IMG/VR virus record: IMGVR_UViG_3300034198_018304
Location: 1-39,616 of that record
From: a virus
DNA: 39,616 nt
Direction: 5' to 3' (one strand)
Position numbers and translations under genes: made by a program. The notes under the pieces are model-generated. The model was not told the origin of the DNA and did not search any database. It was given only the letters and a program-made list of their open reading frames with translations. Below, piece after piece: positions 512 to 32,809 of the stretch; the stretch's first letter is position 1; each line of letters opens with the position of its first letter.

Positions 512-1123
512 ATGCCCGTCTTTAATGAGGGACGCCGAAACACACGACCTGTGATTTTTGATGTCCTTGGGCCAGACCGGGAAACGTCGTTGTTGCCCGA
601 GGGTTGGCGTCTGATCCTGCATGTCAATCCGCAGTCCATGGACATCAAGTACACCCGCAAGGTCTCACGTATTCAGACCAAGGGTGGATTCGTCGAGCAA
701 CATTGGGGAGACGACCCGCAGACGATATCCTTCGAGGCTGCCACGGGGGCTTTCATGCGCCTTTATACGGGTCTAAGTTCCGTTACGGAGCCCGGTTTCA
801 CTGGCGGCACCCGACGTGAGACCTTGGCGTATGACAGTTATCTGGACTTCCTGGCGCTGTTTCATAGCAACGGTTCGCTCTACGACACGAATGGCCAGAT
901 TATCTCTCAGGGAATCATCAAGATCATTTTCGACGAGGGTGTCTATCTGGGATGGTTCCAGGGGTTCTCTGTAAACGAAGAGTCGGACTCGCCCTTTATG
1001 TTCAGGATGACGACGGATTTTGTCATCGAACGGGAGCTTCAGACTTGGCGGACGATTTATAACCCGGCATCCCCTGTGGCGCAGACTCCCTCTGACGCAA
1101 CGGCTCGGACGATGTTGGCATGA
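512..1123 (+). CDS. Tail-tube/baseplate connector structural protein (first of two paralogues)
   Basis: This 203-residue protein starts at ATG 512, behind a strong GCAGGAGG ribosome-binding site that overlaps the end of the tape-measure gene. It carries an NPQS...Y segment, a GGF-EQHWG block, an ATGAF block and a second half with NGSLYDTNG and a Trp-rich beta segment. The same blocks occur in the same order in the next gene (NPKN, YGF-ERWG, TTGAF, NGYLYDTLG), so the two are paralogues. Similar proteins lie between tape measure and hub in many myophages and are thought to join the tube to the baseplate. The assignment to T4 gp48/gp54/gp53-like roles is by position only. Confidence 0.6.
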   Translation: MPVFNEGRRNTRPVIFDVLGPDRETSLLPEGWRLILHVNPQSMDIKYTRKVSRIQTKGGFVEQHWGDDPQTISFEAATGAFMRLYTGLSSVTEPGFTGGTRRETLAYDSYLDFLALFHSNGSLYDTNGQIISQGIIKIIFDEGVYLGWFQGFSVNEESDSPFMFRMTTDFVIERELQTWRTIYNPASPVAQTPSDATARTMLA

Positions 1124-8542: not shown

Positions 8543-9028
8543 ATGACCACTGTCCGTTGCCACGATATCGGAACCCTGATCCGCAGTGCCGAATTCGGCA
8601 AGAAGTGGACCCTCACCCTGACCTATAAGGGTCCGAATGAGAAGAACCTGTCCGGCCACTCGGACAAGTGGTGGTCTATGTCGGGGACGGGGACGGGACG
8701 GGTAGAGATCAACTTCGGCGCCGCTCATTCGATGGGTCGGTCTACCCCGGTGACCAAGACCTACAGCGAGGCCATGAAGGTCTTGAACGAAAAGCTGTTC
8801 AAGGGATACACCTTCTTTACCCCTACCCCCGTCACCACCGCTTCACACATGAAGCCGCTGGCGGGCATGGGCGCCCCATTCTGCAACATCGTGAAGCTCT
8901 TGTTTTCCGATAATGGAACGCCGGTCGATGCCCTCGACGAATCGGGGCGTGTGGTCGTGAGGATCCCCCTCGACACCGCACGGAGTCTGGCAAAGCAGTA
9001 CCCTGACCTCGCGCAGGCTTGCGCGTGA
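8543..9028 (+). CDS. WGR-domain-like protein, partner of the DNA ligase
   Basis: This 161-residue protein starts at an ATG with a TAGGAG ribosome-binding site. Residues about 30-92 read like a WGR domain: a KWW strand, a GRVEINFG strand followed by GR, then T-KTYSEAMKVLNEKLFKGY, which matches the typical ending of bacterial WGR domains (F-x-S-x-x-EA...F-x-KL-x-KGY). WGR domains of PARP-type proteins bind DNA ends and nicks. The gene overlaps the ligase start (TGATG), so the pair is translationally coupled, which fits a role in recognising breaks for sealing. The canonical W-G-R triplet is not intact (INFGAAHSMGR), so the family call is moderate. The last 70 residues are unassigned. Confidence 0.5.
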   Translation: MTTVRCHDIGTLIRSAEFGKKWTLTLTYKGPNEKNLSGHSDKWWSMSGTGTGRVEINFGAAHSMGRSTPVTKTYSEAMKVLNEKLFKGYTFFTPTPVTTASHMKPLAGMGAPFCNIVKLLFSDNGTPVDALDESGRVVVRIPLDTARSLAKQYPDLAQACA

Positions 9029-10899
9029 TGAAATTCATGGATACCATCGAAACCATCGCCGCACGAATTCAGATGTATCGCGATGCCTACTACAACGGCA
9101 CGCCCATGATCGAAGATGCCGTCTACGATGCCCTGGAGGATACACTTCGGGGTCTAGACCCGAACCACCCGTTACTTGCGCGGGTCGGCGCCCCGCCCAC
9201 CGGAGGCTGGAACAAGGTCGCGCACAAGTGCGCGATGGGCAGTCTGGCCAAGGCCCAGGAAGTGGGCGAGGTCGCCGCATGGTTGAAGAACGCCCCTGCC
9301 AAGGGCTACACCGTCATGGAGAAGATGGACGGGGCATCGGTCGCCCTGTTCTACGAGAACGGCGTATTTCGGCAGGCGTTGACTCGCGGCGACGGCGAAA
9401 CGGGCGAGGATATCACTCGCAATGTCATGCGTATGGATTTCCCGAAGACGATCAACGCCCCGTACACGGGCTGGATCCGTGGGGAGATCATGTTGACGCT
9501 CTCGGCGTTCAAGCGTCACTTTGCCGGGGCGAAGAATCCGCGAAACACGGCCAACGGGACCATGAAACGCCATGACGGGACTGGATGCGAGTATCTGACG
9601 ATCTACGTCTACGAATTCGACGCCGCGACCGGCAGCAAGCAGGACGTGCTCCAACTTGCCCGAAGTTTCGGGTTCAAGACGCCCGGTTACTGTTCTGCCC
9701 ACGATCTGACTCACATCAATGACATCTATCAGGGCTACTGTGAAGGTGCCCGTGCCGTTCTGAACTATGAGATCGACGGCCTCGTGATCGAAGTCGATGA
9801 CCGCATCACCCGGGACGATCTGGGTGTCACGGACGGTCGCCCCAAGGGAGCGATTGCCTACAAGTTCCCACATGACATGAAAGAGACGAAAATCCGTAAC
9901 GTGGTCTGGCAGACGGGCAAGACGGGTCGGGTGACACCCGTTGCCATGTTCGATACGGTGCGGCTCGCGGGCGCGGATGTTTCACAGGCGTCACTACACA
10001 ACGTAGGCTATATCCGTCGCCTGGGAGGTCTTCGGAGTGGTGACTTGATCATGGTGTCTCGACGAAACGACGTGATCCCGGCAGTCGAGTCTGTGATTGC
10101 GTCGTATGATGGGGATTTCTTCGCACATCCCGACGACTGCCCAAGCTGTGGCAGTCATCTGGATTTCGAGGGTGAGTATCTGGTCTGTCGTAACGAGGGT
10201 TGTTCCGCGCAGATTGCGGGTGGGATTCGTCGTTGGGTGGACAAGATCGGTGTCCTGCATGTCGGGGAAGGGCTGATTGACGCCCTTGTTGATCAGGGTC
10301 TTGTGCAAGACCCTGCGGACCTGTATGAACTGAGCCCTTCACAGATCGCGAATGTGGAACTGCCCGATGGCCGAGTGGTGGGCGAAGCGATTGCCGACCG
10401 TGCCGTCGCTAACCTGTCTCTCTGCATGAGGCTGGATCTGCACACGTTCGTCGGTTCGTTGGGCATCCCACTTTTCGGTCGGTCGATGGTCAAGGTTCTG
10501 GTCGAAGCCGGATATGACACCCTGGAGAAGCTGCGTGCGATGACTTTGGCAGACATGGCTGGCATTGCGGGTGTCGGCCCCACGAAGGGCAAGTCCTTCA
10601 TTGAAGGCATCGAAGCCCGTGGGGGTTTGATCGACCGTTTGCTCGACGTGGGGATCAAGATCAATATCCGCAGCACGACGGGGCCGATGGTCGGCAAGAG
10701 CATGTGCCTGACGGGTTTTCGGGATGCGACCTTGGAGAAGGCGTTTGAGGATGCGGGAGGTTCAGTCAAGTCCGGTGTCGGCAAGGGACTGACGTATCTC
10801 GTGGCCAAGGATGCCAATTCGGGGTCTTCCAAGTTGCAGAAGGCGCGGGATCTGGGTGTGACAGTCTTGTCGCCGAATGATATGCGAGCCTTGCTCTAA
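9028..10899 (+). CDS. ligA: NAD+-dependent DNA ligase (LigA)
   Basis: This 623-residue protein seals DNA nicks using NAD+. An N-terminal Ia-type segment contains YYNGTPMIEDAVYDAL. The nucleotidyltransferase active site is EKMDG with catalytic Lys99, followed by TRGDGETGEDIT, RGEI, YEIDGLVIEVDD (motif IV) and AYKFP (motif V). An OB domain (TGRVTPVA, SLHN, GD-x-I-x-x-RRNDVIP), a four-Cys zinc finger (Cys371, 374, 387, 392), helix-hairpin-helix repeats and a C-terminal BRCT domain (about 555-623) complete the standard order. The length is slightly below the usual 670 residues of bacterial enzymes. I chose ATG 9028, which overlaps the upstream stop by one base; TTG 9019 and ATG 9037 are alternatives. 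A strong hairpin follows the stop. Confidence 0.96.
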   Translation: MKFMDTIETIAARIQMYRDAYYNGTPMIEDAVYDALEDTLRGLDPNHPLLARVGAPPTGGWNKVAHKCAMGSLAKAQEVGEVAAWLKNAPAKGYTVMEKMDGASVALFYENGVFRQALTRGDGETGEDITRNVMRMDFPKTINAPYTGWIRGEIMLTLSAFKRHFAGAKNPRNTANGTMKRHDGTGCEYLTIYVYEFDAATGSKQDVLQLARSFGFKTPGYCSAHDLTHINDIYQGYCEGARAVLNYEIDGLVIEVDDRITRDDLGVTDGRPKGAIAYKFPHDMKETKIRNVVWQTGKTGRVTPVAMFDTVRLAGADVSQASLHNVGYIRRLGGLRSGDLIMVSRRNDVIPAVESVIASYDGDFFAHPDDCPSCGSHLDFEGEYLVCRNEGCSAQIAGGIRRWVDKIGVLHVGEGLIDALVDQGLVQDPADLYELSPSQIANVELPDGRVVGEAIADRAVANLSLCMRLDLHTFVGSLGIPLFGRSMVKVLVEAGYDTLEKLRAMTLADMAGIAGVGPTKGKSFIEGIEARGGLIDRLLDVGIKINIRSTTGPMVGKSMCLTGFRDATLEKAFEDAGGSVKSGVGKGLTYLVAKDANSGSSKLQKARDLGVTVLSPNDMRALL

Positions 10900-10966: not shown

Positions 10967-11022
10967 GCGTTAATGCCCTCGACGTATCGCCACACTTGCG
11001 CAACCCCCACAGGGAACGGGAC

Positions 11023-12060
11023 ATGAAGATCGCTACAAGCATTTCTGTCGGGGATCGCGAGTCGCCACTAGAGGCGGACTCCGAAACGGACGTGCTCCAT
11101 ACGGGGGACGAGATCGGCAAGCGTTGTGAGATATCCCCGTTCGCTGGCGGGCAGCTTGTCAACCATGTAGGCAAAGGTGCCCGTATCACGGGGATCATCA
11201 AACGTCTTGGGCAGACGGTGGGTTATGAGATCCGAATCAACAATCGCACGGTCTTGGTGCCTCTTAAAGACGTGTTTGTTGGTCGGCAGGTACTAGAGGA
11301 CATCCAAGCACCTACGCTCTACACGCGGGCGATCCGGGAGGCTCTTTCGCACTGGAAGGTGCAACGTGATTATTGGGCGCCGGATTTGTCTGGTTTGGAG
11401 GCGCTCTGCTATGAACTCGCCACGGTGGCACCCTCTGCACACATTGTTGTAACGGATGGTGGTTGGAAGTTTCTGGTGCCTGAGCCGCTTGGTGGCCGTG
11501 TTGTTGTGGACTGTGCGGTTCGAGTCCACGGCAACATTTGGTCTATGACAGTGGCCATATATCCTGAGCGTGAGCCGACTCCGGATGCAAAGCCAATTTT
11601 GGATCATTGGGGTCGGGTATTTACGTGGGCACACACGATTGCGTCACAGTTTAAGGGTTTGCCGTGGGAGAAGGCGTTGGGGAACCTGAGCAAACGCGCA
11701 CAAGTTTCTGCAAAACTTTTGCGACCTTTACTGGCAGAGTCCTTGGCAACAGCTTTCGAGAAGCGGCAGGAGCTTTTTGGAGACGCCCCGAAAATTTACA
11801 ACAATGGTGTGAGCATCGGCATGTCGAAAATCCGACTCTTGCCGATGACCGTTGGGTTGACGGAGCAGCCGAGTGATCGTCGACCGTACACCGTCATTTC
11901 GATATCGCCTGACGCCTGCAAGACGCGGGATGCAATGCGGGATGTGATCCTACATGAGTGCGTCCATTTGGCGTTGGCCGTTCGTGGTGGAGACCCACAC
12001 AACGGCGACTTCCACAAACTAGCAGATGCTCTAGGGCTGCCAGAGAAACACCAACACTAA
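11023..12060 (+). CDS. Zincin-type metallopeptidase-like protein (SprT-like ending)
   Basis: This 345-residue protein has the zinc-binding helix HECVH (residues 311-315) preceded by RDVIL, and GDPHNGDFHKLADALGLP about 10 residues later. That arrangement resembles SprT-like and related zincins, in which a third His or Asp downstream completes the site. The preceding 300 residues are not recognised; a beta-rich segment near residues 50-95 (GARITGIIKRLG, NNRTVLVPLKDV) could be an SH3-like barrel. ATG 11023 is preferred over an in-frame TTG at 10996 because AGGGAACGGG lies just upstream of it. It opens the late gene block, with the next gene 12 bases on. Its role (virion maturation, lysis or host-protein cleavage) cannot be told from the sequence. 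Confidence 0.6.
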   Translation: MKIATSISVGDRESPLEADSETDVLHTGDEIGKRCEISPFAGGQLVNHVGKGARITGIIKRLGQTVGYEIRINNRTVLVPLKDVFVGRQVLEDIQAPTLYTRAIREALSHWKVQRDYWAPDLSGLEALCYELATVAPSAHIVVTDGGWKFLVPEPLGGRVVVDCAVRVHGNIWSMTVAIYPEREPTPDAKPILDHWGRVFTWAHTIASQFKGLPWEKALGNLSKRAQVSAKLLRPLLAESLATAFEKRQELFGDAPKIYNNGVSIGMSKIRLLPMTVGLTEQPSDRRPYTVISISPDACKTRDAMRDVILHECVHLALAVRGGDPHNGDFHKLADALGLPEKHQH

Positions 12061-13080: not shown

Positions 13081-15171
13081 ATGGCCTGGAACCCCACACA
13101 AGATTGGCCTTACCCACCAGCTAACGTCACGGCCATGTCGGCATTTACCGGCACGGACGTAGACCTTCGATGGGATGACCCGGCGACGCTGAATACCGGG
13201 CCGGCAAACCCATCTACGCGGGCTGCGGTGACCATCACGGTCGCAGGTAGCCCTGCGACCCTTCAGTCGGCTATCGGTGGCATCACGGTCGTATCGTCCC
13301 CTTTGCCGATTGGATCTACGCTGACGATTGGTGGGGAGGTTTTGACTTGCGTTGCGGGAGCCCCGGCCAACCCTGATGAGTTCGACGGTTCGAGTTTGGA
13401 TCGAGCAACCGTCGCAGCGAACATTGTGTCGGCGATAAATTTGGGAAGCGTGGCAACATGGGGCATCGCCACGGCTGTTGTCGCCGCAAATGTGATAACG
13501 CTTACCGCAGGGTTGGCCGGGGCTGAGGGCAATACGATTGCGATGTCCTCATCTTCATTGGACCTGGCGATCACGGCTTTCACAGGGGGCCGTGATCCCA
13601 GCACTTTGACCGTTGGCGGTCAGGTCTTGGTTGCGGTGCCGACCAGGACTGCGGGCGGCATGAACTTTGGTGTTGGGCCGACAAATTTTGATACGGCGGC
13701 CAGTATCGCTGCCGCAATCAACGACCACACGAACACTGTAGGTTTTGTTTCGGCGCGCATCGTGGACGGGGATCGGGTTGTCCTATCTGCATTCCGTGAC
13801 GGCACGATGGGGAATGGTATCACGGTCACGACGACCTCCAGTGCCTTGACGTTATCAAATGGCCAGACAACAGGTGGGTCAGGTGTCCCTTGCACGGGGA
13901 AATCCAACTCCGCTTGGACTATTGTCGGAGTCAATATTTACAGGTCGGACACGGGGGAGCGTGGCCCATATATTCGCGTTAACAAGATCCCTCTGGGAAC
14001 ATTGTTCTATCGTGACCGGACGGATATCCGTCGAGTCTACGATGAGGTTGTCGCGTGGAGCGGTTCATGGATTTATCGTGGGGGCGCCCCCAATGATCCA
14101 ATTTGGCGTTTTCGGACGCATTTTAGACCTGTGGTCAAAGCCACGGGCAACGCGATAGCAGCGAATTCATCGAATGATGTAGAAGTTTTTGTTGATGGTG
14201 TGCGGATGCCGCTGGCTGAGGTGTTCGGCCCAACAGGCGAGATTGATCTGAATCTGGCGCCGGTCTGGAATCCGGCAACGGAGAATTTGTCCACACCACC
14301 CACACCGACCGAGAATTCATTGGTCACTGTGAATTACTACTATGGTCGTGGGAACGTCTTGACGATGGGGCCTGATTTACGCCCCAAGGTTTTCTATCGG
14401 ATGACGACAGTGGCGATTGACCCTACGGGTACAACGCCATCGGGACTAATCGAAACGCCGCTTGAATACTGCGAGCCTGTTACACCATTCAACTCGGAAA
14501 CGCTGGATTATATCTGGCGTGAGGCAATTCGACGTAACAGATTCATTCTTGAACAAGGTGGCGAACGGGTAAAGCTGTTCATTCGCAAAATTACCGGGGT
14601 TCCTTGTGCCTGTGTGTGGGATGCCCGTTTACGTGAATACATGGGCCAGCCTTTGAACGATTGCCGGTCATGTTACGGCGTGGGATGGCTGGCGGGCTAC
14701 GAGGGGCCGATTGATATCATCATTGGTCCGGATGATTCCGAGCGTCGGGTGACGCAGACTCCGAATGGTCGTAGGTTGGAGAATACCTATGAGGTCTGGA
14801 TAGGACCGACGCCGATGGTGTCCCAGCGAGACTTCATCGTTAAACAAAATGGCGAACGGTTTTCGATTGGGCCTGTAAGAAGAACGCAAGTGCGCGGATT
14901 GACTTTGCAGCAGGCATTTCAGATTGGATACCTGCCTGAGACGGACATCAGGTATCAAGTCCCGATGGCGGATCTGGAACGGCTGGCATGGCCTGAGACG
15001 CGGTACACCCGGCCTGAAGATTCGCCCTGTGCGGATGCCCCGCCATATCCTGTGGGCTATGATTATCAGGCATCCCCGATGGGAACCGAAGTGGCCAAGG
15101 TGCCGGACGGGCGTGAAATTCGGGGCCGAACCCCCGTTTTTGCAAATCTGACGTATGGCGGTAATGGATAA
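13081..15171 (+). CDS. Large virion structural protein with duplicated beta domain and a four-Cys cluster
   Basis: This 696-residue protein has two tandem copies of a roughly 90-residue beta-rich unit (about residues 75-165 and 165-255). Both start with TLTIGGEVL or TLTVGGQVL, carry an A-x-x-A-x-x-IAAAIN-type helix and end with a GA-x-GN-x-I segment. This unit is common in phage tail and neck structural proteins. The middle part contains Ig-like strands, and the C-terminal third has CACVWD, then 15 residues, then CRSC, a probable metal site. The following gene resembles tail-completion proteins, so a head-to-tail or baseplate role is plausible. ATG 13081 lacks an obvious Shine-Dalgarno sequence. 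Confidence 0.65.
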   Translation: MAWNPTQDWPYPPANVTAMSAFTGTDVDLRWDDPATLNTGPANPSTRAAVTITVAGSPATLQSAIGGITVVSSPLPIGSTLTIGGEVLTCVAGAPANPDEFDGSSLDRATVAANIVSAINLGSVATWGIATAVVAANVITLTAGLAGAEGNTIAMSSSSLDLAITAFTGGRDPSTLTVGGQVLVAVPTRTAGGMNFGVGPTNFDTAASIAAAINDHTNTVGFVSARIVDGDRVVLSAFRDGTMGNGITVTTTSSALTLSNGQTTGGSGVPCTGKSNSAWTIVGVNIYRSDTGERGPYIRVNKIPLGTLFYRDRTDIRRVYDEVVAWSGSWIYRGGAPNDPIWRFRTHFRPVVKATGNAIAANSSNDVEVFVDGVRMPLAEVFGPTGEIDLNLAPVWNPATENLSTPPTPTENSLVTVNYYYGRGNVLTMGPDLRPKVFYRMTTVAIDPTGTTPSGLIETPLEYCEPVTPFNSETLDYIWREAIRRNRFILEQGGERVKLFIRKITGVPCACVWDARLREYMGQPLNDCRSCYGVGWLAGYEGPIDIIIGPDDSERRVTQTPNGRRLENTYEVWIGPTPMVSQRDFIVKQNGERFSIGPVRRTQVRGLTLQQAFQIGYLPETDIRYQVPMADLERLAWPETRYTRPEDSPCADAPPYPVGYDYQASPMGTEVAKVPDGREIRGRTPVFANLTYGGNG

Positions 15172-15174
15172 GAG

Positions 15175-15708
15175 ATGCCGCTTCGTGCTGCCAAATCGGA
15201 GAAGTCGTTTGTGCATATAGGGGGCGGTGTGTATGCCCCGAACGCACGTCTGATGGAAGTCGCGGCGAAGATCATCCTTGATGCGGTGAAGAAAGAAGCT
15301 GCGCTGGACATGGCCAAAGTAGGGGCGGTGTCAAAAAGCCAAGGGAAACCTGTGAGCTTGCCCCGAACGAGTGAATTCCTGGATTCGTTCAGCTACAAGA
15401 TCGAACGTAATGAGGTCGAAGTGCTATCAAGCTGGCCTATGTTTGAGCAGCACATCGAGGGTCGTGGCCCCTATCCGATGACGTGGCTTACGCAAGCCGA
15501 AGGCGTGACCGTAGTCCCGATGATCACCTCAACTGGCATCACGATTATGCGAATGGCTCCGTTGGACCGGGGTTCCGCCTGGATTCATCCAGGATTTTTG
15601 AGGTATACATTTCTCCAACGGGGACTCGATAAAGGGACAGACAAAGCTATAAGCTGGCTTCTTGAAGAAGCGGGCGGAGACTTTGTCTGCATGACACTCG
15701 AAAAATGA
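15175..15708 (+). CDS. Putative tail-completion / neck protein (HK97-gp10-like)
   Basis: This 177-residue protein begins three bases after the previous stop. It has an N-terminal helix region with Lys- and Ala-rich segments (VAAKIILDAVKKEA), a central beta section (SYKIERNEVEVLSSWPMFEQHIEGR) and an IHPGFLRYTFLQRGLDKG segment. The pattern of a helix, a sheet and an HPG-x-x-R ending is typical of small tail-completion proteins of the gp10/gpZ type. It sits directly after a large structural protein and overlaps the next gene by four bases (ATGA). Sequence conservation in this family is low, so this is a moderate call. Confidence 0.45.
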   Translation: MPLRAAKSEKSFVHIGGGVYAPNARLMEVAAKIILDAVKKEAALDMAKVGAVSKSQGKPVSLPRTSEFLDSFSYKIERNEVEVLSSWPMFEQHIEGRGPYPMTWLTQAEGVTVVPMITSTGITIMRMAPLDRGSAWIHPGFLRYTFLQRGLDKGTDKAISWLLEEAGGDFVCMTLEK

Positions 15709-16343
15709 AACAAATTCAAATCACACTTGGATATGGTCGGGTGCTTCCAGTCCACATCCCGGACTTGGATGTCACTGTGCGATTGGGAGAGACACATCTG
15801 ATAGATGAGGTCCGAGCCCGAAACTCGCTTTGTATGACCACGCTTATGCAAACGGGTCACATTCGGGTATCTTATAGGCGGAGTGATGAGACAAAAATGG
15901 CAACAATCGCAACAAAGCCGAGTGTACATTCTGTCGTGCAATCCCGGCCTTCGAGTCAGCCTTTGTCACACGCACCAAAGCCAACCCCACAGGCTCCTTC
16001 CGTGGATGTGGACAAGATAGCCGCAGCAGTTGCCGTGGCCGTGGCGTCACAACAAGCCGCCCAGCCTGCCGCCCTTGAAGCCATGATTGAGCGAGCCGTT
16101 GAAAGCGCCCTTTCACGGGCAAGATTAGCAGCACCCGGCAGTGCGTCTATCAACGCCAACAGGGACGACTTGATGCACACAGATCCAGTGTATATACCAA
16201 CAAATATTGTTGGGGATGCACCTGTAGAGATCAAGACGACTGCTGGTGTTTCCGATGCGGCGAGCCTGCATGATGCAGCGAAGGCGCTCAAATCTGTCAA
16301 TCGACCCAAGCGAGTAAAGAAGCAAGACCATGGCGAAGAGTAA
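15705..16343 (+). CDS. Hypothetical protein with N-terminal beta domain and Ala/Pro-rich linker
   Basis: This 212-residue protein starts within the upstream stop codon. Residues 1-60 form a compact beta-type domain. This is followed by a Pro/Ser/Gln-rich linker (about 70-100), an Ala-rich helix (about 103-145) and a Lys/Arg-rich C-terminus. The 3' end overlaps the actin-like gene by 14 bases, so production of the two proteins is probably linked. I do not recognise a family. Its position between a tail-completion candidate and the actin-like protein leaves both a virion protein and a partner of the filament open. Confidence 0.6.
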   Translation: MKQIQITLGYGRVLPVHIPDLDVTVRLGETHLIDEVRARNSLCMTTLMQTGHIRVSYRRSDETKMATIATKPSVHSVVQSRPSSQPLSHAPKPTPQAPSVDVDKIAAAVAVAVASQQAAQPAALEAMIERAVESALSRARLAAPGSASINANRDDLMHTDPVYIPTNIVGDAPVEIKTTAGVSDAASLHDAAKALKSVNRPKRVKKQDHGEE

Positions 16344-17343
16344 CACTGTTTCTCGGGGCATCGGCGCAGACATCGGGACAATGAATGTCGTGTCTGCACG
16401 CATGTCCGATGACGGCCAAATCAAAACGGCCCGGATTCGAGATGCCTTTATCGATCTGGAAGCTGGGGCGAAGAAAATGCTCAAGCTCTCTGGTGTCGAT
16501 TTTATCGACCAAGGCGACGAAGGCATTGTTGTCATTGGGGACGCTGCCATGGAGATGGCAACGGTCTTCGGAAGGGAATTGCGGCGTCCGCTGTCCCGGG
16601 GCTTGATTGCAGCCGGTGAAATTGACGCTCTAAAAGTCCTCGGCGTCATTGTCAAAGGGGTTTTAGGTCCGCCGAAGGAACCCAATGAGATTTGTTACTT
16701 TTGTGTGCCTGCGGCTCCAGTTGACGAAGCTCGTGATGTCGTCTATCACCGGGGCGTGCTGGAACGTATTGTGACTGAGTGCGGCTATGACGCTGTGGCA
16801 ACAAACGAAGCCATGGCAATCATCTTCTCGGAGGCAGCAAAAGAGAACTTCACTGCCATCGGTGCGAGCTTCGGATCTGGCATGACCAATATCGCGCTCG
16901 CCATCAATGGCGTCGAGGGCATGGCTTTCTCTTGCGCCAAGGGTGGTGATTGGCTGGATGCTGGCGCTGCCAAAGCAGTCGGATCAACGGCATCCCGCAT
17001 CTGCGCAATCAAAGAGCGGGGGATCGACCTCATGGCGCCTAAGAACCGTGAGGAAGAGGCTCTGGTACTCTACTACAAGAGCCTGATCGAATACGTGATC
17101 GACCAAATCGCACGAGAGTTTGACCGCAATCGGGAGAAGTTCGCGCTGCCCCGTGAAATCCCGATTATCGTCTCGGGTGGGACATCTATGGCCGGTGGTT
17201 TTCTGGCCCTTTTCCAGAAAGTCTTTGACCGCAAAAAGAAGCGGTTTCCGATCCAGATCAGCGAGATACGGGCCGCCAGTGATCCGCTCAATGCTGTGGC
17301 TAATGGGCTTCTCGTCCTTGCTCGGCAAGAGTACGAGGACTGA
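16330..17343 (+). CDS. Actin-like ATPase (ParM/MreB superfamily)
   Basis: This 337-residue protein has the ordered actin-fold motifs. Phosphate-1 is GADIGTMNV (Asp14-Thr17). A connecting helix contains TNEAMAIIFSEA (Glu160 region). Phosphate-2 is GASFGSGMTNIAL (178-190), and the adenosine-binding loop is IIVSGGTSMAGGF (279-291). The length matches ParM and MreB. Proteins of this fold bind ATP and assemble into filaments that move or position DNA, or they act as Hsp70-type ATPases; no Hsp70 substrate domain is present. In phosphate-2 the usual acidic residue is Ser180 (normally V-D-x-G-G-G-T-T-D), so hydrolysis may be altered. It lies among virion-type genes and overlaps the upstream gene by 14 bases. 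The actin fold is confident; its role is unknown. Confidence 0.85.
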   Translation: MAKSNTVSRGIGADIGTMNVVSARMSDDGQIKTARIRDAFIDLEAGAKKMLKLSGVDFIDQGDEGIVVIGDAAMEMATVFGRELRRPLSRGLIAAGEIDALKVLGVIVKGVLGPPKEPNEICYFCVPAAPVDEARDVVYHRGVLERIVTECGYDAVATNEAMAIIFSEAAKENFTAIGASFGSGMTNIALAINGVEGMAFSCAKGGDWLDAGAAKAVGSTASRICAIKERGIDLMAPKNREEEALVLYYKSLIEYVIDQIAREFDRNREKFALPREIPIIVSGGTSMAGGFLALFQKVFDRKKKRFPIQISEIRAASDPLNAVANGLLVLARQEYED

Positions 17344-17375: not shown

Positions 17376-18665
17376 ATGCAGCATCAAGCATCGCCTTTCA
17401 AAGTAGCCGCACGTTTTTTGAAAGCTGGTTTGATACAGCCACCTCCTGTAATGCTGACCAGCATTCGAGAATGGGTGCTTGGCTGTATCGCAGCAACCAA
17501 AATAGATAAGTTGGAGCGTAAGCTCCAATCCCATCTGGAATCCAGAGGCCGGTATCTCACACGACTCAGTGAGCTAGAACGTGCGGCTTCGCGGCTGGAG
17601 GGGCTCCTGCCTAGTGGCAAGTCCCGAGAACTGTTGTCGGCCGCAAAAGAGTTGTTCTCACTCACCTTGGGCGTCTTCGGCTATGGCGTCGCCCAAGAAC
17701 CGGAAGCGGCACACTTTCAAAAGCTAGACGACGCCAAACGCGCATCGTTGATTCCGGCACTTCAAGCCATGCTCAGCAAGGTTCGATACCGCTGTGCAAT
17801 TGAGCGGCTTGACCGCGAGGTCGAGAACGACTTGGAGCGTGATATCGCAACCGTTCGGCCAAGTGTTACACCGGACGCGGTATCCGTGCGTGACGGCAAA
17901 GCAAAAAAGACTTTCCCGGTGGATCTGACGGGCTGGAAGTACGGGGACGCTGCGATCTGGGACGCTCTGAAGGCCACGAAGTCCAAGCTCCTTGCGGAGA
18001 CTGGGATTACACGCGCTGAATTGCTAAACAGCTTACGTGAACAGCAGACAGAATCCAGATATGGATGGCGCAATATCACAGTCATCCTCATGGATGGTGA
18101 GATGGCACCACCTAATGCCACAGGGGGACATTGGTCTCCCATAGCGAGAGAGTTGGTGCTCTATATCCCTCTTGTCCAGGCGGAAGACCGGATTTTGAGC
18201 ACGATCTACCATGAAATGACTCATGTGGCGCAGTCCATCCTTCGTGAATCCGTGACAAATGTGGACTATGCAGACTTCAAATCGGGAGTCCGACTGCATG
18301 TGCCGGGAATGCCCCCAAAAAACATTTCGACACCGAAGCATATCCAACTCCAAGGTCCCGGAGTTAGAAGCCCGAATGCGCTTGAAACTCACGCCCTGGA
18401 CGACGTTGAGTTTTTCACGGACTTGAAAGATGCAATTGACACGGCAAAAGTCGGACTTCGAGACTTGGATCGGCGTTATCGACGCCAAGCAACCCGTGAA
18501 GAACAACGCATCTATATTGACTGGTTTGTGGGGGTCTTGCCCCGGTGGCCCGCTTCAATGGGCCAGATCCCTCCGCAGCAATCTCCAGCCTTCAAAGCGT
18601 GGAGGCGGGATGCTCCTGGCAAGTGGAAACGCGGAATCAAAGAGTTGTTCAAGCTACTGGATTAA
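17376..18665 (+). CDS. Zinc metallopeptidase-like protein (HEMTH)
   Basis: This 429-residue protein carries YHEMTHVAQSIL, an HExxH zinc helix at about residues 278-282, preceded by a strand (ELVLYIP). Downstream, an ALETHALDDVEFFTDL segment (about 335-350) may supply further ligands. The N-terminus, SPFKVAARFLKAG, looks like a short separate tag before a charged helical region (about 40-150). Together with the product of 11023-12060 it makes a second zincin-like protein in the same late block. It could be a maturation or scaffold protease, an endolysin-like peptidase or an internal virion protein; none is proved. No strong ribosome-binding site precedes the ATG at 17376. Confidence 0.6.
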   Translation: MQHQASPFKVAARFLKAGLIQPPPVMLTSIREWVLGCIAATKIDKLERKLQSHLESRGRYLTRLSELERAASRLEGLLPSGKSRELLSAAKELFSLTLGVFGYGVAQEPEAAHFQKLDDAKRASLIPALQAMLSKVRYRCAIERLDREVENDLERDIATVRPSVTPDAVSVRDGKAKKTFPVDLTGWKYGDAAIWDALKATKSKLLAETGITRAELLNSLREQQTESRYGWRNITVILMDGEMAPPNATGGHWSPIARELVLYIPLVQAEDRILSTIYHEMTHVAQSILRESVTNVDYADFKSGVRLHVPGMPPKNISTPKHIQLQGPGVRSPNALETHALDDVEFFTDLKDAIDTAKVGLRDLDRRYRRQATREEQRIYIDWFVGVLPRWPASMGQIPPQQSPAFKAWRRDAPGKWKRGIKELFKLLD

Positions 18666-21214: not shown

Positions 21215-22411
21215 TCACTCATCCCCTGTTGAAACCTTGCGGCCAACGTTCCAGATCAAATCATGTGCGCCTAGAATCCTTCGGACCTTGTCGGGATCGT
21301 TTTTCGTGCCTGGTTTTTTGACCAATTCAAGGAGCGTATCGGTGACCTTCTCCAAGGTCACATCTTGGTCAAAGAGGCTGAACAATGCCCCACGGGCGCC
21401 ATGCGATCCGACAACTTGAATGGCGTAGTCTTTACGGGCCATGCCACGACCCTGATTGATCAAGATCAGGCATTCTCGTGCCCGTGCCGACAACGCATCG
21501 TAAAACGCAGCCTCGAATCCCTCGACCCGAGCTAAATCCGAGGCATTGAGCCGCCCCTTGGCATCGTCCAGCAAACCGTCAAGGATCGTTTCCAGGATAC
21601 AAGATTCGCTTCGTAGAATGCCTAGGGTCTTGTGCCGCAAGCAATACTCATCGGCCTTGACCTTGACCATGGAAGGTTCGAGGTCGTCCTCAAATCTGAT
21701 GACGAATCCTTCCATGTTGGAGAGTCCGCGCACGTAGGTCCCGAACGCTGTGCGATCTTCCGTGTTGAGATCAAAAGCCAAAACGCATTCGATGCCCGCG
21801 CGACCAGCAAATCCGGTCATGGTCTTGTGATGCATGTACTGGCCGGTCCCCAAATGCCGCATGGCAGTCAGTACCAGTCGGTCAATCGGATGTTCGATTA
21901 CCACCCGGTTTTGCAGGCTACACCACTCAAAGATCGGTGTGCATCCGAGAGTGCTCAGGCACAACTGGCAGAAGGCAGCATATTCGGGATGCGACTTTGC
22001 GAATTCGGTTGCCTGAGCCGCAACATCCGTAGCCCCCATGCGAGTGCCAAAAACAACATTCCCGTCAACGTCAAACCAGATGGGCCGGACCATGGATCCG
22101 TCCAGCTTTTCAAGGATGACGTGCGGCCGGGACAAATCTATTTCAGCCAGGGACGTCCCCGGAACCTCACCCGCATTGAAGAATTTGTGGTACGGGCGGT
22201 TAAACACCGCGCCCGTCACCTTGTTGAAAATGATCCCACGACATTCGATGCGGGAGCCCGTTAGGTCTTCGTTGAACAGCGCAGGATAGCCGTAGATGTA
22301 GTTGAATAGCACCAAAGGCGTGCCGTCAGGGGCATTGAAATCACGGCGGGCGAACGATGGATGATCCCCCACAGCGATTTCGACATCGTTCAATGTGATT
22401 TGGTGCTTCAT
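21215..22411 (-). CDS. rnlA: T4 Rnl1-type RNA ligase
   Basis: This 398-residue enzyme would join RNA 5'-phosphate and 3'-hydroxyl ends using ATP, as in phage repair of tRNAs cut by host nucleases. The covalent nucleotidyltransferase motif is EKLDGSM with catalytic Lys102. It is preceded by the family-typical ECRGIIFN (56-63) and followed by a motif-III-like IFEWC, EGFVIRF (motif IV) and MVKVKADEY (motif V). The length is close to the 374 residues of T4 Rnl1, whose catalytic lysine is Lys99. It lies in a leftward operon with an HNH and a SAP-like gene. No classical polynucleotide kinase/phosphatase partner is adjacent. Confidence 0.9.
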   Translation of the reverse strand: MKHQITLNDVEIAVGDHPSFARRDFNAPDGTPLVLFNYIYGYPALFNEDLTGSRIECRGIIFNKVTGAVFNRPYHKFFNAGEVPGTSLAEIDLSRPHVILEKLDGSMVRPIWFDVDGNVVFGTRMGATDVAAQATEFAKSHPEYAAFCQLCLSTLGCTPIFEWCSLQNRVVIEHPIDRLVLTAMRHLGTGQYMHHKTMTGFAGRAGIECVLAFDLNTEDRTAFGTYVRGLSNMEGFVIRFEDDLEPSMVKVKADEYCLRHKTLGILRSESCILETILDGLLDDAKGRLNASDLARVEGFEAAFYDALSARARECLILINQGRGMARKDYAIQVVGSHGARGALFSLFDQDVTLEKVTDTLLELVKKPGTKNDPDKVRRILGAHDLIWNVGRKVSTGDE

Positions 22412-24883: not shown

Positions 24884-25489
24884 ATGGGGATGTTTGATCG
24901 GGTCGAGGTTGATCCCGCCTTGGCGGCTGAGATCAACCTGCCGAATGGGTCCGGTTGGCAAACCAAATCTCACTTCCCCCGTGGCGGGAATAGCCTCGGA
25001 GTTGTGCGGTTGCTGCCTGACCGGACGATGGAGTGGTCATCCAGGCACAACGATGGTGCCGAGGTTATCCTCGGCAACGGTGTGGTGACTTTCTACACGC
25101 CGTATCTCTGTGAGGATCAGAAAGATGTGCGCCCCGGTACGTCCTGGCTGGAGTACGACGCCCATTTCGTTGACGGAGTGCTTTACCGACTGGACGAGGT
25201 GCAGCGCGGTGTCACGCCACACGAATCGCCTGTCACTGTCTGGGAAGACGAGGCTAAACGACGTGTCGTTATCCATTTCGTTGACGGAGTGCTTTACCGA
25301 CTGGACGAGGTGCAGCGCGGTGTCACGCCACATGAATCGCCTGTCACTGTCTGGGAAGACGAGGCTAAACGACGTGTCGTTATCCCTGTGTCCGACGTAT
25401 TGGCGGTCTTGGCTATGCTGGAGCGGCTGGAACAGTCCGAGGCTCTTTGCGAGCGGCTACGTCACCGAATCGCCCACAAGGCCCCATGA
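24884..25489 (+). CDS. MGMFD-type phage protein with an internal 37-residue duplication
   Basis: This 201-residue protein begins MGMFDRVEVDPAL and continues with a QTKSH segment. This MGMFD-x-V...FQTK opening is shared by a widespread group of uncharacterised phage proteins (my recollection of the family, not searched here). Residues about 94-130 and 131-167 are an identical direct repeat, encoded by the 111-bp tandem duplication at 25162-25383. The core without the extra copy would be 164 residues. The repeated unit consists of strands (VDGVLYRLDEV, SPVTVWEDEAKRRVVI), so the duplication may add a beta layer or be neutral. A C-terminal helix contains LAMLERLEQSEALCERL. Confidence 0.75.
   Translation: MGMFDRVEVDPALAAEINLPNGSGWQTKSHFPRGGNSLGVVRLLPDRTMEWSSRHNDGAEVILGNGVVTFYTPYLCEDQKDVRPGTSWLEYDAHFVDGVLYRLDEVQRGVTPHESPVTVWEDEAKRRVVIHFVDGVLYRLDEVQRGVTPHESPVTVWEDEAKRRVVIPVSDVLAVLAMLERLEQSEALCERLRHRIAHKAP
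25162..25383 (+). repeat. 111-bp tandem direct duplication, in frame
   Basis: Units 25162-25272 and 25273-25383 are identical except for one C/T change (CACACGAATC against CACATGAATC). The change is silent (His codon), so the encoded 37-residue repeats are identical. Such near-perfect identity indicates a very recent event. Confidence 0.97.
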
Positions 25490-25511
25490 TGGGCTTCATC
25501 AGGAAGGAACT

Positions 25512-25730
25512 ATGAGTCAAGCATCATCTCAAGACGACGACTGGTCTGCCATCGAAATGGATCAGTACCTCACGCATATCTGGCGTATTGTCGATGGTCG
25601 CTTGGCCGTGGCAATGATGGTTTCGAATGCCACGGCGGAATCCTTGCGTGATCAGATCCGCAAGGCTGAGGAGGATCTACAACTGCTATGCCAGTTCGGC
25701 ACGGCCAAGCGCCTTAAAGGTCGGGTTTAA
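25512..25730 (+). CDS. Small hypothetical protein
   Basis: This 72-residue protein is read from ATG 25512 with AGGAAGGA just upstream. It begins MSQASSQDDDWSAIEMDQYL, then LTHIWRIVDGRLAVAMMV and a C-terminal charged helix with LRDQIRKAEEDLQLL. It is the last gene of the rightward operon. Its 3' end overlaps the end of the convergent phosphoesterase gene by 17 bases (25714-25730), with no hairpin visible between them. No family is recognised. Confidence 0.65.
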   Translation: MSQASSQDDDWSAIEMDQYLTHIWRIVDGRLAVAMMVSNATAESLRDQIRKAEEDLQLLCQFGTAKRLKGRV

Positions 25731-28806: not shown

Positions 28807-29412
28807 ATGACGGACGCGCTCCCTATCGTTTTCCTCGACCTCGACGAAACGCTTGTCTGCTCATTCGAGCCTATGACCGTGACGTATGCCCAAGCGGCAT
28901 ACGACAGGGCGATGCTCAAGCCGCAGACCCCGTTCAACGATAGTCTCCGTACACGTTCCCGCATTCGGTTGGAGCAGCTAAAATCAGCGGTGCGTGTGTC
29001 ATCGGAATTCATGGCCATCGTGCGACCAGACGCGCAAAAAGCCATAGACTTTCTGGGTACTTTTGCCGAGATCCATATCTTCACAGCAGCCGACGCAGAA
29101 TATGCAGCGGCCGTTTGCACCGCCGCTGAATTCAAGTTCAAGCCCGGCGAAGGTCGCATCTTCACGCTTCGGAACCCAGGCTTGGATATGCGTTGGGCGA
29201 TTCATCGCCCTTGGGTCTTGCTTGACGATACGCCAGGATTTGCAAAGATCACTTTCCTCGAAGACCTGGATTTTGAATCCCGAGTGATCCAAGTAGATCC
29301 ATTGGATCTGGGTGATGAGTGCTTGTCCCTGATGGACTACGCAAAAGAGGCGGCTCGGCGGTTCGGATTTATCGATCCTCATCATAGGTCAAAGTTAACG
29401 ACCCAAGCGTGA
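28807..29412 (+). CDS. HAD-superfamily phosphatase (FCP1/NIF-like)
   Basis: This 201-residue protein has FLDLDETLVCS (motif I, nucleophile Asp11 and Asp13), IRPDAQKAIDFL followed by IHIFTAAD (motif II Thr), and WVLLDDTP (acidic motif). DLDETL together with RP...F-E-I-x-x-FT is the signature of FCP1/SCP-type phosphatases, which act on phosphoproteins; other HAD members remove phosphates from small molecules or nucleic-acid ends. ATG 28807 follows GGAGG with six bases of spacing. It lies downstream of promoter P6. The 3' end overlaps the convergent baseplate gene by 44 bases. Confidence 0.85.
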   Translation: MTDALPIVFLDLDETLVCSFEPMTVTYAQAAYDRAMLKPQTPFNDSLRTRSRIRLEQLKSAVRVSSEFMAIVRPDAQKAIDFLGTFAEIHIFTAADAEYAAAVCTAAEFKFKPGEGRIFTLRNPGLDMRWAIHRPWVLLDDTPGFAKITFLEDLDFESRVIQVDPLDLGDECLSLMDYAKEAARRFGFIDPHHRSKLTTQA

Positions 29413-32400
29413 CGTATTGCGTAGGTCCAGGGTCGATATCCTTGCTGCCACTGTCGGCCCCGACAATGTAGATAACGGCATAGGTGTGCGCAGTCGGGGA
29501 TTGGCCAACAGGGAGCGACACCAAAATCCGATTCGCGGTCAGGGCGAGCCTTTGGGCAGCAATTGCTGCCGCCGTCACATAGCCTTGGGCTATTAGGGTT
29601 GCATCATCCGAGTAGCCCGCGATGGCTCGACCGGATGCGCCCAAGATATAAGCCCTGCCCGATGCAAGTCCGAGAGATCCCAGATTTGCAGCGGCCTCCA
29701 GTAAATCCAGTGCAACCTGATCCTGGAAGACTCCACGATAGTCGACGGAAGGCCCACCGCCATCCGTTGTCGCAGCGGATAGAGGGTTCTTCAGGATATA
29801 CACGGTGGTCCGATTGCTGGATAGCGATGATATGCTCGCGGACTCAGCCGCCGTGTCCGTGGAGATTTCATCCCAGACCACAGTGCTGTTCTCTGCACGG
29901 ACCATTTTTGTAAGGGGTACGACAACGTAGGACACGCCTGTTGTCTGCTCGAACACGCTGATCAAATCTGATTGTCGTATGGCGTCGCCAAGCCTCATAC
30001 CCGCAAGAAAATTGTCGAGGTTCGTCCGCAATGCCCGATCTACAAAAGCAGGATCAAGACCTCGCTGCAAGACGATGGTCGCGGATAAGTCCAGCGGAGC
30101 CGGTATGGCCTCTTTGACGAGAACGTCGGCAGTCGCGTGTTTACGCGCGTCAATCGCGTTCTGGGTCAGGGACACAATCAAATTTGTCGTGTACGTGACC
30201 GTGAAATTCTCGTCATGCTCGTAGCTAACAAGCACACTTGCGCCTGATGGGATCGCCCCTGTCTCGACGCGCGTGATTGATGCTGCTGTGGTCTGTGTGC
30301 CCAGCGTAATCTCAAAGTCGGGGTCGCCAGAGGGGTCATCCGGTCCTTTGTATTCTGTCAAGCCATCTGCGCTAAACACCCGGATTGTAAAATAGTTGGC
30401 GCCGAGGTTGTTCAAATATTCAGGGTACTGCCCAATCAACACATGCTGCTCACCGACGATTGACGTGAACGTCCCGCCCACACCGCCGTTGATTTGTAGA
30501 TAGTCGCCCGAGATAGTTGATCGACCGTACCCCAAAGGTGAGTTCGGGTGGTATAAACCGTACACTGTAGGATCAAGTGTGCCTGAAGCTGTCCCCACGA
30601 CAGATTTGATCTGTTTGACGGGCTGTCGAGGGAGAACAAAGATATTCCCTGCCCTTTTGCGATATGACCCCAACACGATATCAGTCAGATCCACAGAAGG
30701 CTGTGCGATACTGGTATCCAACTGGATCGTATTGTAGGACGTAATCACAACGTTGGTCAGGTCAAAAGTCTCACCTGTGGACACATTCTTAAACGTGTAA
30801 CCTGCGGCGGGTACGTCTAGCATTTCAACAATCGGGTTGTCCACGTTTAGAGCGGTATCCACCGCCACAAACGTCAATGAAGCGGGGTCTCCAACGGATT
30901 CGAATTGGATGTCTTGTGCAATATCATAGGAGAAGGCAAAAGAGTCCGTGATCGTAGCAACATTGGATTCCCCTTGGACCCACACGTCGACCTTGCCGCC
31001 CCGATGCACTTGATTGTCATCCAAGTCGCGCATCATCACGGCGTCGCCTGCTGCCACAACGTTCGCTTCGATGACGCCTGGAGTATCCGCTGCGGTCTGC
31101 GCGTAACCTAGGGCCGTGCCCGAGTCCACCGAAGCAAGACGGTTCTGAGCCCGCTCAATTAATTCGAGGTTGGACTCGGTGCCCACGCCCCCAAACATGG
31201 CCGCAGAGTTTGTGACAAGAACCCCACCGGGAATTTGGGTCACAACCTGACGAACCTGACCGACGCCAACGTTGCCGCTGCTGCCAGTGTTGACCGCGCG
31301 AACGGGCACATTGACTTTGTACCTGCCAGACACAGGGTCGTAAAAAGACGCGAGTTGGCTAAAATCAATGCTTGCTGCACGGGTGGTGACGAACTGCACC
31401 CCACTCGCAGCAACAATTGTTCCGATGGCGAGAGATATCGTGAACGTCGGCCGCTTGCTTGTGTAGAACGTCACTTCACCTTGAGCAGCTTGCCCCGATC
31501 TACGAATCACCCCAAAATTGCTGGCATATACATCAAACGCAGAGTCCACCATCGCCTGGACCGCAGCGTTGGAATTCATGTAGAGCGCAGCTTTGAGTGC
31601 TTGTTTGTATGCACTTTGCGTAACAGCAACCGATGACCCCGTATTTTGCGGGTCGTCGATCTGAAGTAACAACGCGGGTGTGCGGGACCGATAAAAGAAA
31701 TCCATCAGGAACCGGAGTCGCTCGGACTCTGATGAGAACGGGTCAATCACCGTATCCCGCAGAGTAGATCCAGGCTCTACTTTGATCTGTGGGTTTGATC
31801 GGAAAACGGCCTCGATGTAGCTCTCGACGATTTTTTGCCTGGACACAACCGCCAGCGATCCATTTGCGGTCGATATTGCAAGAGGTCTGGCCACGACTTC
31901 TTGCGAATAGGCAGATGTATATTCGAGATTCGACGCCGTATCATAGTAGGTGGCTACGACAACGTAGTAGAGCGGTGTCTCTGCGGGCAAACTACTGAAT
32001 ATGCCTGTACGAATAGTTTTTGGGTCCGATGTTGGCCCGTTTGATCGTCCGTGCTCGAATGAATAGACCGTGAAAGTACGAACAGTGTCCAGTGTTGCCG
32101 TCATTCGGATATGACGTGCCGTCTCAGGAATCACAAATCGGGAGTCCAAGTCCGCCTGGAGCAAGTCCCTGTTCGTGTCTTCTTGACGGGCAAGAACCCG
32201 AAAGTATTGAGGGTCCGCAAGCGGTACGTCACTCCCATCAACTGCAACATTCGTATCCAGATTAATAGACCCGAATGTCTCGACCTCCTGCTGACCCGTA
32301 CCAGAGGTCACCATATCCAAATTGATCTTTGTGTAGCCCTGAGTGCCACCACCGGCGTCCATTGAAGCATAGAAGTCCATGCCACGAAAGCCTGTGGAAC

Positions 32401-32809
32401 TGCTCGGTTCCGCTTGGATGACTACCGTGCTGCTCTTTTGCGTCACCCGAACGTTCGTCGGCGCCGTCGCAATTACAATATTGGCGTCCGTTACCAACCA
32501 GATTGTGGCGACTGCCGGTGATGACGCCATGCCCGAAGGATCAATGGCCCGCACCGATATCGTATTCATCCCAGCAAGTAAAACCAGTCCATCCGGTTCG
32601 TACATGGGATTCGGGACTGTGAAGCTGCCGTCACCCCACAAGGCCAGCGATGGATCCGACGAATAGCCAGAGCCGTTGACGGAAACCTGGAAGTCAATTG
32701 CGTCCTCTGGTAACGACCCCTGCACAAATTTTCGTGCAATCGTCGTGCTGAAGGCCAACGTACTTCTAGCCAAGCCGTCTGGACCTGTGATTGTGACAAG
32801 TGCTGCCAT
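29369..32809 (-). CDS. Baseplate wedge protein, gpJ-like, with N-terminal Ig/FN3-like domains
   Basis: This 1146-residue protein contains a Baseplate_J-type region near residues 450-640. Its signs are GTIVAASGVQFVTTR followed by strands, VPVRAVNTGSSGNVG, an LIERAQNRLASVDSGTALGY helix and TPGVIEANVV. The N-terminal 330 residues are Ig- or FN3-like (ATAPTNVRVTQKSSTVVIQAE). Baseplate J family proteins form the wedge ring that joins sheath to fibres in contractile tails. P2 gpJ is about 300 residues and T4 gp6 about 660, so this is an enlarged version. It starts within the upstream stop (TGATG). The encoding strand is opposite to the hub and spike genes. Confidence 0.75.
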   Translation of the reverse strand: MAALVTITGPDGLARSTLAFSTTIARKFVQGSLPEDAIDFQVSVNGSGYSSDPSLALWGDGSFTVPNPMYEPDGLVLLAGMNTISVRAIDPSGMASSPAVATIWLVTDANIVIATAPTNVRVTQKSSTVVIQAEPSSSTGFRGMDFYASMDAGGGTQGYTKINLDMVTSGTGQQEVETFGSINLDTNVAVDGSDVPLADPQYFRVLARQEDTNRDLLQADLDSRFVIPETARHIRMTATLDTVRTFTVYSFEHGRSNGPTSDPKTIRTGIFSSLPAETPLYYVVVATYYDTASNLEYTSAYSQEVVARPLAISTANGSLAVVSRQKIVESYIEAVFRSNPQIKVEPGSTLRDTVIDPFSSESERLRFLMDFFYRSRTPALLLQIDDPQNTGSSVAVTQSAYKQALKAALYMNSNAAVQAMVDSAFDVYASNFGVIRRSGQAAQGEVTFYTSKRPTFTISLAIGTIVAASGVQFVTTRAASIDFSQLASFYDPVSGRYKVNVPVRAVNTGSSGNVGVGQVRQVVTQIPGGVLVTNSAAMFGGVGTESNLELIERAQNRLASVDSGTALGYAQTAADTPGVIEANVVAAGDAVMMRDLDDNQVHRGGKVDVWVQGESNVATITDSFAFSYDIAQDIQFESVGDPASLTFVAVDTALNVDNPIVEMLDVPAAGYTFKNVSTGETFDLTNVVITSYNTIQLDTSIAQPSVDLTDIVLGSYRKRAGNIFVLPRQPVKQIKSVVGTASGTLDPTVYGLYHPNSPLGYGRSTISGDYLQINGGVGGTFTSIVGEQHVLIGQYPEYLNNLGANYFTIRVFSADGLTEYKGPDDPSGDPDFEITLGTQTTAASITRVETGAIPSGASVLVSYEHDENFTVTYTTNLIVSLTQNAIDARKHATADVLVKEAIPAPLDLSATIVLQRGLDPAFVDRALRTNLDNFLAGMRLGDAIRQSDLISVFEQTTGVSYVVVPLTKMVRAENSTVVWDEISTDTAAESASISSLSSNRTTVYILKNPLSAATTDGGGPSVDYRGVFQDQVALDLLEAAANLGSLGLASGRAYILGASGRAIAGYSDDATLIAQGYVTAAAIAAQRLALTANRILVSLPVGQSPTAHTYAVIYIVGADSGSKDIDPGPTQYVTLGSLTLTYDEDR

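Follow-up and report, generated by a model that had tools for sequence, protein, structure and literature searches.

Phage volactin, an actin-family protein from the tail operon of huge phages, and its proposed adaptor cl1

We propose that phage volactin is an actin-family ATPase that is co-produced with proteins of the neck and tail and that forms filaments which, anchored by the protein cl1, place phage particles; we assign this reading a probability of about 0.45. The protein is encoded in the window, i.e. the whole stretch of DNA that was analysed, a fragmentary linear virus record of 39616 bases. Judged by its sequence, the open reading frame at positions 16330 to 17343 is a real gene for an actin-family protein and a full-length member of the Volactin family. 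Phage volactin belongs to a family that is already known, but its setting and its partner are new.

Family and fold of the phage protein

The gene lies on the plus strand, begins with ATG and encodes a predicted actin-like ATPase of 337 amino acids, which was assigned by its Pfam match and its AlphaFold2 fold. The Pfam Volactin profile (PF25216) matches the protein over profile positions 3 to 321 of 321 with an E-value of 3.5e-74; the score is 250.6 bits, where the curated cut-off is 35. Other actin families in Pfam gave no match. A match to MreB_Mbl was absent at E-values up to 1, and no match to the Hsp70 or Ppx families was found. The AlphaFold2 model has a mean pLDDT of 93.6 and, together with the Pfam score, bears out the initial annotation of this reading frame as an actin-like ATPase.

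The best solved folds for the model are MamK (Z 29.1; rmsd 2.8 Å over 294 aligned residues), BeeR (Z 27.4) and MreB (Z 26), all of which are filament formers with an identity to phage volactin of only 17–20%. Actin and DnaK follow closely behind, DnaK being a few Z units lower. In the model, the ATPase fold extends to the end of the protein at residue 337, and no substrate domain is present. The possibility raised in the initial annotation, that the homologues are chaperones of the Hsp70/Ppx type, is therefore not borne out, since a substrate domain is lacking and the closest folds are those of filament-forming proteins. Filament formation by the window volactin is expected from the modelled fold and from the family, with the DnaK fold close behind.

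The window protein shares its Pfam family with VolA of Haloferax volcanii (HVO_2015, PF25216) from end to end, and its identity to haloarchaeal volactins amounts to 38–40%. In the window protein, the P1 motif reads G12-A-D14-I-G16-T17, the P2 stretch A179-S180-F-G-S-G-M-T-N187 and the adenosine motif G283-G-T-S286. The features of P1, P2 (S-F-G-x-G-M-T-N) and Tyr-His are shared with haloarchaeal volactins, from which the phage clade differs in a small insertion close to residue 300 and in conserved positions of its own. The volactin of Hfx. volcanii forms dynamic filaments in vivo with fast polymerisation and depolymerisation, and acts in disk-shape formation (PMC10869688). Different from this archaeal protein, the phage gene is a member of a tail operon and is accompanied by cl1.

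The tail operon and the proposed partner cl1

The window encodes a contractile-tail baseplate J-like protein (29369–32809, minus strand; PF04865, E 2.7e-23; phrog_6, baseplate wedge, E 4.3e-29), a sheath-initiator or baseplate protein (33017–34165, minus strand; PF10934, E 3.5e-4; phrog_975, E 7.9e-8) and a probable tail tube initiator or structural protein (512–1123, plus strand; PF23980, E 8e-6; phrog_1011, virion structural), and therefore stems from a contractile-tailed virus. Upstream of volactin and on the same plus strand are found cl2 (13081–15171; 696 amino acids), a conserved protein of the neck-tail module with no known relative by profile; cl4 (15175–15708; 177 amino acids), a probable neck or tail-completion protein that is conserved directly upstream of cl1 and has a weak PHROG match; and cl1 (15705–16343; 212 amino acids), an Ala/Pro-rich protein and the proposed volactin adaptor. 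The order cl2-cl4-cl1-volactin is kept in other phages. Neither cl3 nor a tail sheath gene was found when both were looked for in this 39.6-kb fragment.

The overlap of volactin with a small Ala/Pro-rich gene, recorded in the initial annotation, amounts to 14 nucleotides with cl1. The flanking genes had been named as tail-completion and metallopeptidase genes. The gene downstream (17376–18665, plus strand) encodes a putative zinc metallopeptidase of 429 amino acids with a HEMTH motif and a weak SprT-like match. It is a variable neighbour outside the conserved module, and its cluster has only 3 members. The tail-completion name for cl4 is weak, because a single one of 29 family members matches 'tail completion or Neck1' (E 0.008) and the structure model (pLDDT 74.6) gave no convincing fold match.

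Several further genes of the window deserve mention. A second putative metallopeptidase of the SprT/HExxH type at 10996–12060 places such genes on either side of the neck-volactin block (with 17376–18665), and both an NAD-dependent DNA ligase (9019–10899, plus strand) and a T4 Rnl1-type RNA ligase (phrog_562; 21215–22411, minus strand) are located amid structural genes. At 25162–25385, within the reading-frame region 24884–25730, a 111-bp unit is duplicated in tandem in near-perfect form.

In the clade of phage volactins to which the window belongs (clade A), diverged phages repeatedly show the genes for cl2, cl4, cl1, volactin, cl3, zinc-ribbon protein, tail sheath and tube-like protein in this order. 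Here, cl4, cl1 and volactin constitute a tight operon that is situated after neck-type genes and before the tail sheath. The downstream protein of about 1700 amino acids was identified as tail sheath in 20 of 20 members by PHROGs. Together with the contractile-tail genes of the window, this order agrees with the earlier placement of the gene in a late or virion block. PHROGs gave no match for volactin itself, and a sequence search of solved structures found no true relative of volactin, cl2, cl3, cl4, the sheath or the tube protein. With starts set at the first possible codon, cl1 precedes volactin in 80 loci, overlapping it in 42, lying within 48 nucleotides in 28 and being separated from it by inserts in 10. 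Genes that by appearance are homing endonuclease-like, and other genes as well, are inserted at many places in the clade A module, the cl4-to-cl3 interval around volactin being a frequent insertion place (e.g. clusters 14, 24 and 25).

In the cl1 protein, a variable linker rich in Ala and Pro joins a conserved N-terminal domain to a C-terminal tail, which is likewise conserved. The family form of this tail is F-I-P-x-x-I-V ... D-D-A-x-x-A-L-K-A-x-R-K, and it reads YIPTNIV...LHDAAKALK in the window. Among 91 distinct cl1 proteins with volactin downstream, 79 have the strict tail and 12 a visible variant. The tail is missing in all four cl1 proteins without volactin, in which the match to the cl1 profile stops at positions 85 to 159 of 220. 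The simplest reading of this sequence pattern is that the C-terminal tail of cl1 binds volactin and that its N-terminal part belongs to the tail module, but a single deletion that takes out volactin along with the 3' end of cl1 could mimic the joint loss of a binding tail.

The association was also assessed in tail modules that were recruited via cl3 and cl2, without volactin as bait. Volactin is present in 51 of 57 cl3 loci with sufficient flank and in 46 of 66 cl2 loci. Of 68 distinct modules with cl4 and cl3, 52 contain cl1 as well as volactin and 10 contain neither, while cl1 occurs alone in 4 and volactin alone in 2; the Fisher p for this co-occurrence is 2e-7 and serves only as a guide, because the rows are related. 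When volactin is absent from the module, it is absent from the rest of the contig as well (14 of 14 contigs). In the cl3 tree, several rows without volactin are nested inside volactin-bearing clades; 8 label changes are needed for volactin, at least 5 of them forced by well-supported branches, and 3 changes for the cl1-only state. As these nested rows keep the tail module, volactin is an accessory component, and it has probably been lost repeatedly.

The place of volactin in the tail operon beside a probable adaptor suggests that an actin-type machine is used while particles are built or placed. In the proposed mechanism, cl1 would be attached by its N-terminal domain to the particle under assembly, at the neck or tail, and would bind volactin with its flexible linker and C-terminal tail. 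Volactin would bind ATP and build dynamic filaments like archaeal volactin. Late in infection, growing or anchored filaments would position or gather the assembling heads, tails or virions inside the host cell. The working principle would be that of ParR-ParM or AlpA-AlpC, but the cargo would be a virion part and not DNA. In more general terms, huge contractile-tailed phages may possess actin-based machinery that is dedicated to the assembly or transport of virions and operates via cl1, and phage volactin may be the first actin of a phage with a link to a part of the virion and not to DNA, a tentative claim to which we give somewhat less than an even chance.

The fixed place between neck-type and sheath genes would equally suit an assembly ATPase or minor virion part, which is non-filamentous or ring-like, is held by cl1 at the neck and uses ATP for head-tail joining or sheath loading. 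The analogue would be the HSP70 homologue of closteroviruses, a virus-coded ATPase of the actin/Hsp70 fold that is linked to the virion tail. This protein is found among the viral fold matches of the window volactin, and the small distance in Z between DnaK and MamK points in the same direction. Closteroviruses are, however, RNA plant viruses, their homologue is an Hsp70 with a C-terminal domain, and no homology with phage volactin is claimed. We consider this alternative rather unlikely, as the closest folds and the family are those of filament formers. An obligate structural part is in addition disfavoured by the several nested lineages that lack volactin and keep the tail module.

Distribution, origins and possible links to host and DNA

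A scan of IMG/VR with an alignment as query yielded 504 stretches related to the window volactin, while a phage scan with the single window protein as query found no relative. The best 80 of the 504 stretches include 13 distinct contigs of more than 200 kb, the largest measuring 619 kb. The closest of 50,697 phage records is LR745208, a 485-kb uncultured phage genome with 63% identity, and the sole other match is LR756511, a 595-kb uncultured phage with 31% identity; thus, no cultured phage matched in that collection. A second phage clade (clade B) was found with a second query and comprises contigs of up to 533 kb in addition to the 595-kb record. Contig IMGVR_UViG_3300025141_000016 (297 kb) carries two sets of cl4-cl1-volactin (L007 10001–11014 and L014 2129–3133), both with neck-type genes, which may correspond to two tail modules or to a joined assembly.

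In trees, clades A and B are located on separate, fully supported branches among volactins from bacterial and archaeal genomes. Two origins of the phage clades are therefore likely on phylogenetic grounds, but a single common origin is not rejected (p-AU 0.093). Some Omnitrophota genomes contain two adjacent volactin genes of unequal length (L168, L169 and L170; G002, G138 and G124), possibly a two-actin system in bacteria.

In contrast to clade A, volactin of clade B is preceded by a gene for a protein of about 78 amino acids, and HHalign detected no homology between the partner genes of the two clades. This small protein (e.g. L003 19768–19998) has a conserved W-x-I-P-D-F C-terminus and its gene abuts volactin, so that it possibly represents a partner of its own. 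Near clade B volactin, a PKD-domain protein and a weak match to glycosyltransferase-9 are encoded; one phage additionally has a portal gene there, along with weak tail-lysin/tape-measure matches. Where a clade B tail sheath was found, it is about 50–110 kb away from volactin. Because the neighbours differ and the sheath is distant, a neck or tail cargo does not apply to phage volactins in general.

The nesting of clade A among volactins of cellular genomes, together with the role of volactin in Haloferax shape (PMC10869688), would suit a host-directed actin that changes the shape of the cell or disturbs the host cytoskeleton. Such an activity appears clearly unlikely in view of the fixed linkage of volactin to cl1 and the tail genes, the N-terminal domain of cl1 remaining with the tail module when volactin is absent.

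Segregation of the genome or positioning of replicating DNA, as by ParMRC or the prophage AlpAC system, with cl1 or a neighbour as DNA-binding adaptor, is how the phage actins described in the papers that our search found work. ParM/ParR/parC and prophage AlpC/AlpA/alpS likewise combine an actin-family ATPase with a co-transcribed adaptor-like partner. Different from both, phage volactin belongs to another actin family and is not accompanied by parC- or alpS-like repeats, and its partner tracks tail genes and not a DNA site. No parC-like repeat array was found near the gene, in line with the initial annotation, which had seen no ParR/parC-like pair, and neither Pfam nor PHROGs recognised a DNA-binding family in cl1 or its neighbours. 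In combination with the location in a tail block, these results render a role in segregation improbable.

The phosphate-2 site and phage cytoskeletal proteins

The initial annotation read the P2 block with a serine at the place of the usual aspartate, and here the sequence and a profile alignment concur: HHalign aligns Ser180 onto the Asp of MreB IIDIGGGTTE (probability 98.4, E 4e-14), which MreB keeps. Both Ser180 and Asn187 are present in 165 of 165 aligned volactins (84 of 84 from phages, 81 of 81 others). The scans for the first collection relied on peptide patterns of P1 and P2 and were biased towards this motif; members recruited by HMM were therefore checked separately, and full-length volactins recruited by the Pfam HMM also retain Ser180. 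Variation at this place is seen only in long divergent paralogues of haloarchaea, in which volactin domains without the P2 serine occur in open frames of about 770–1260 amino acids (L184–L192). Ser180 is therefore an old family trait, and the idea of a phage-specific loss was rejected, as the serine is found family-wide and in cellular members.

The catalytic residue is Gln137 in actin and a Glu in MreB. Its place falls on an invariant Tyr139-His140 pair of volactins, with an ambiguous alignment register, and from the alignment Tyr139 or His140 could replace the catalytic residue. Volactins thus pose a puzzle at the level of the family: they are altered at both the metal-site Asp and the catalytic Gln/Glu place, which puts the route of ATP hydrolysis in question.

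The idea that the phage has a static, non-hydrolysing filament of its own, for which Ser180 and the apparent takeover of the catalytic place by Tyr139-His140 would speak, is highly improbable, because both features are common to the whole family, cellular members included, and the family has dynamic filaments in vivo. Being common to all volactins, Ser180 does not argue for a non-hydrolysing phage filament, nor does the P2 motif argue for a static one, since archaeal volactin turns over fast in cells. As to the roles suggested in the initial annotation, the tail-block context makes an involvement in the assembly or positioning of virions likely, whereas the non-hydrolysing filament did not hold up.

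The cytoskeletal proteins known so far from phages are mainly PhuZ tubulins that place the phage nucleus, or ParM-like actins that move DNA. We found no relevant paper on phage volactin in a literature search that mostly did not extend to subscription papers and preprints, where reports may exist; a survey of huge phages mentions tubulin and not actin (PMC7162821), and a 2026 review of jumbo phages discusses PhuZ and no phage actin (PMC13282480). PhuZ of nucleus-forming jumbo phages is likewise a cytoskeletal-type protein of very large phages, but volactin has an actin and not a tubulin fold. In 21 large records tested, volactin was present in all and a Pfam tubulin in none, although a divergent PhuZ might escape detection; tubulin was also looked for as a substitute in relatives without volactin, and none was found.

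A filament-type actin family is now seen in the tail operon of a large and diverse group of uncultured huge phages, next to a partner whose C-terminal tail comes and goes with volactin. If cl1 links the actin to the particle, the way in which huge phages organise their assembly in a small cell would be directly testable with two proteins that a laboratory strain can produce. Capsids travel along PhuZ filaments (PMC13282480), and the volactin-cl1 system, if the proposed reading is true, would be the actin counterpart of this transport.
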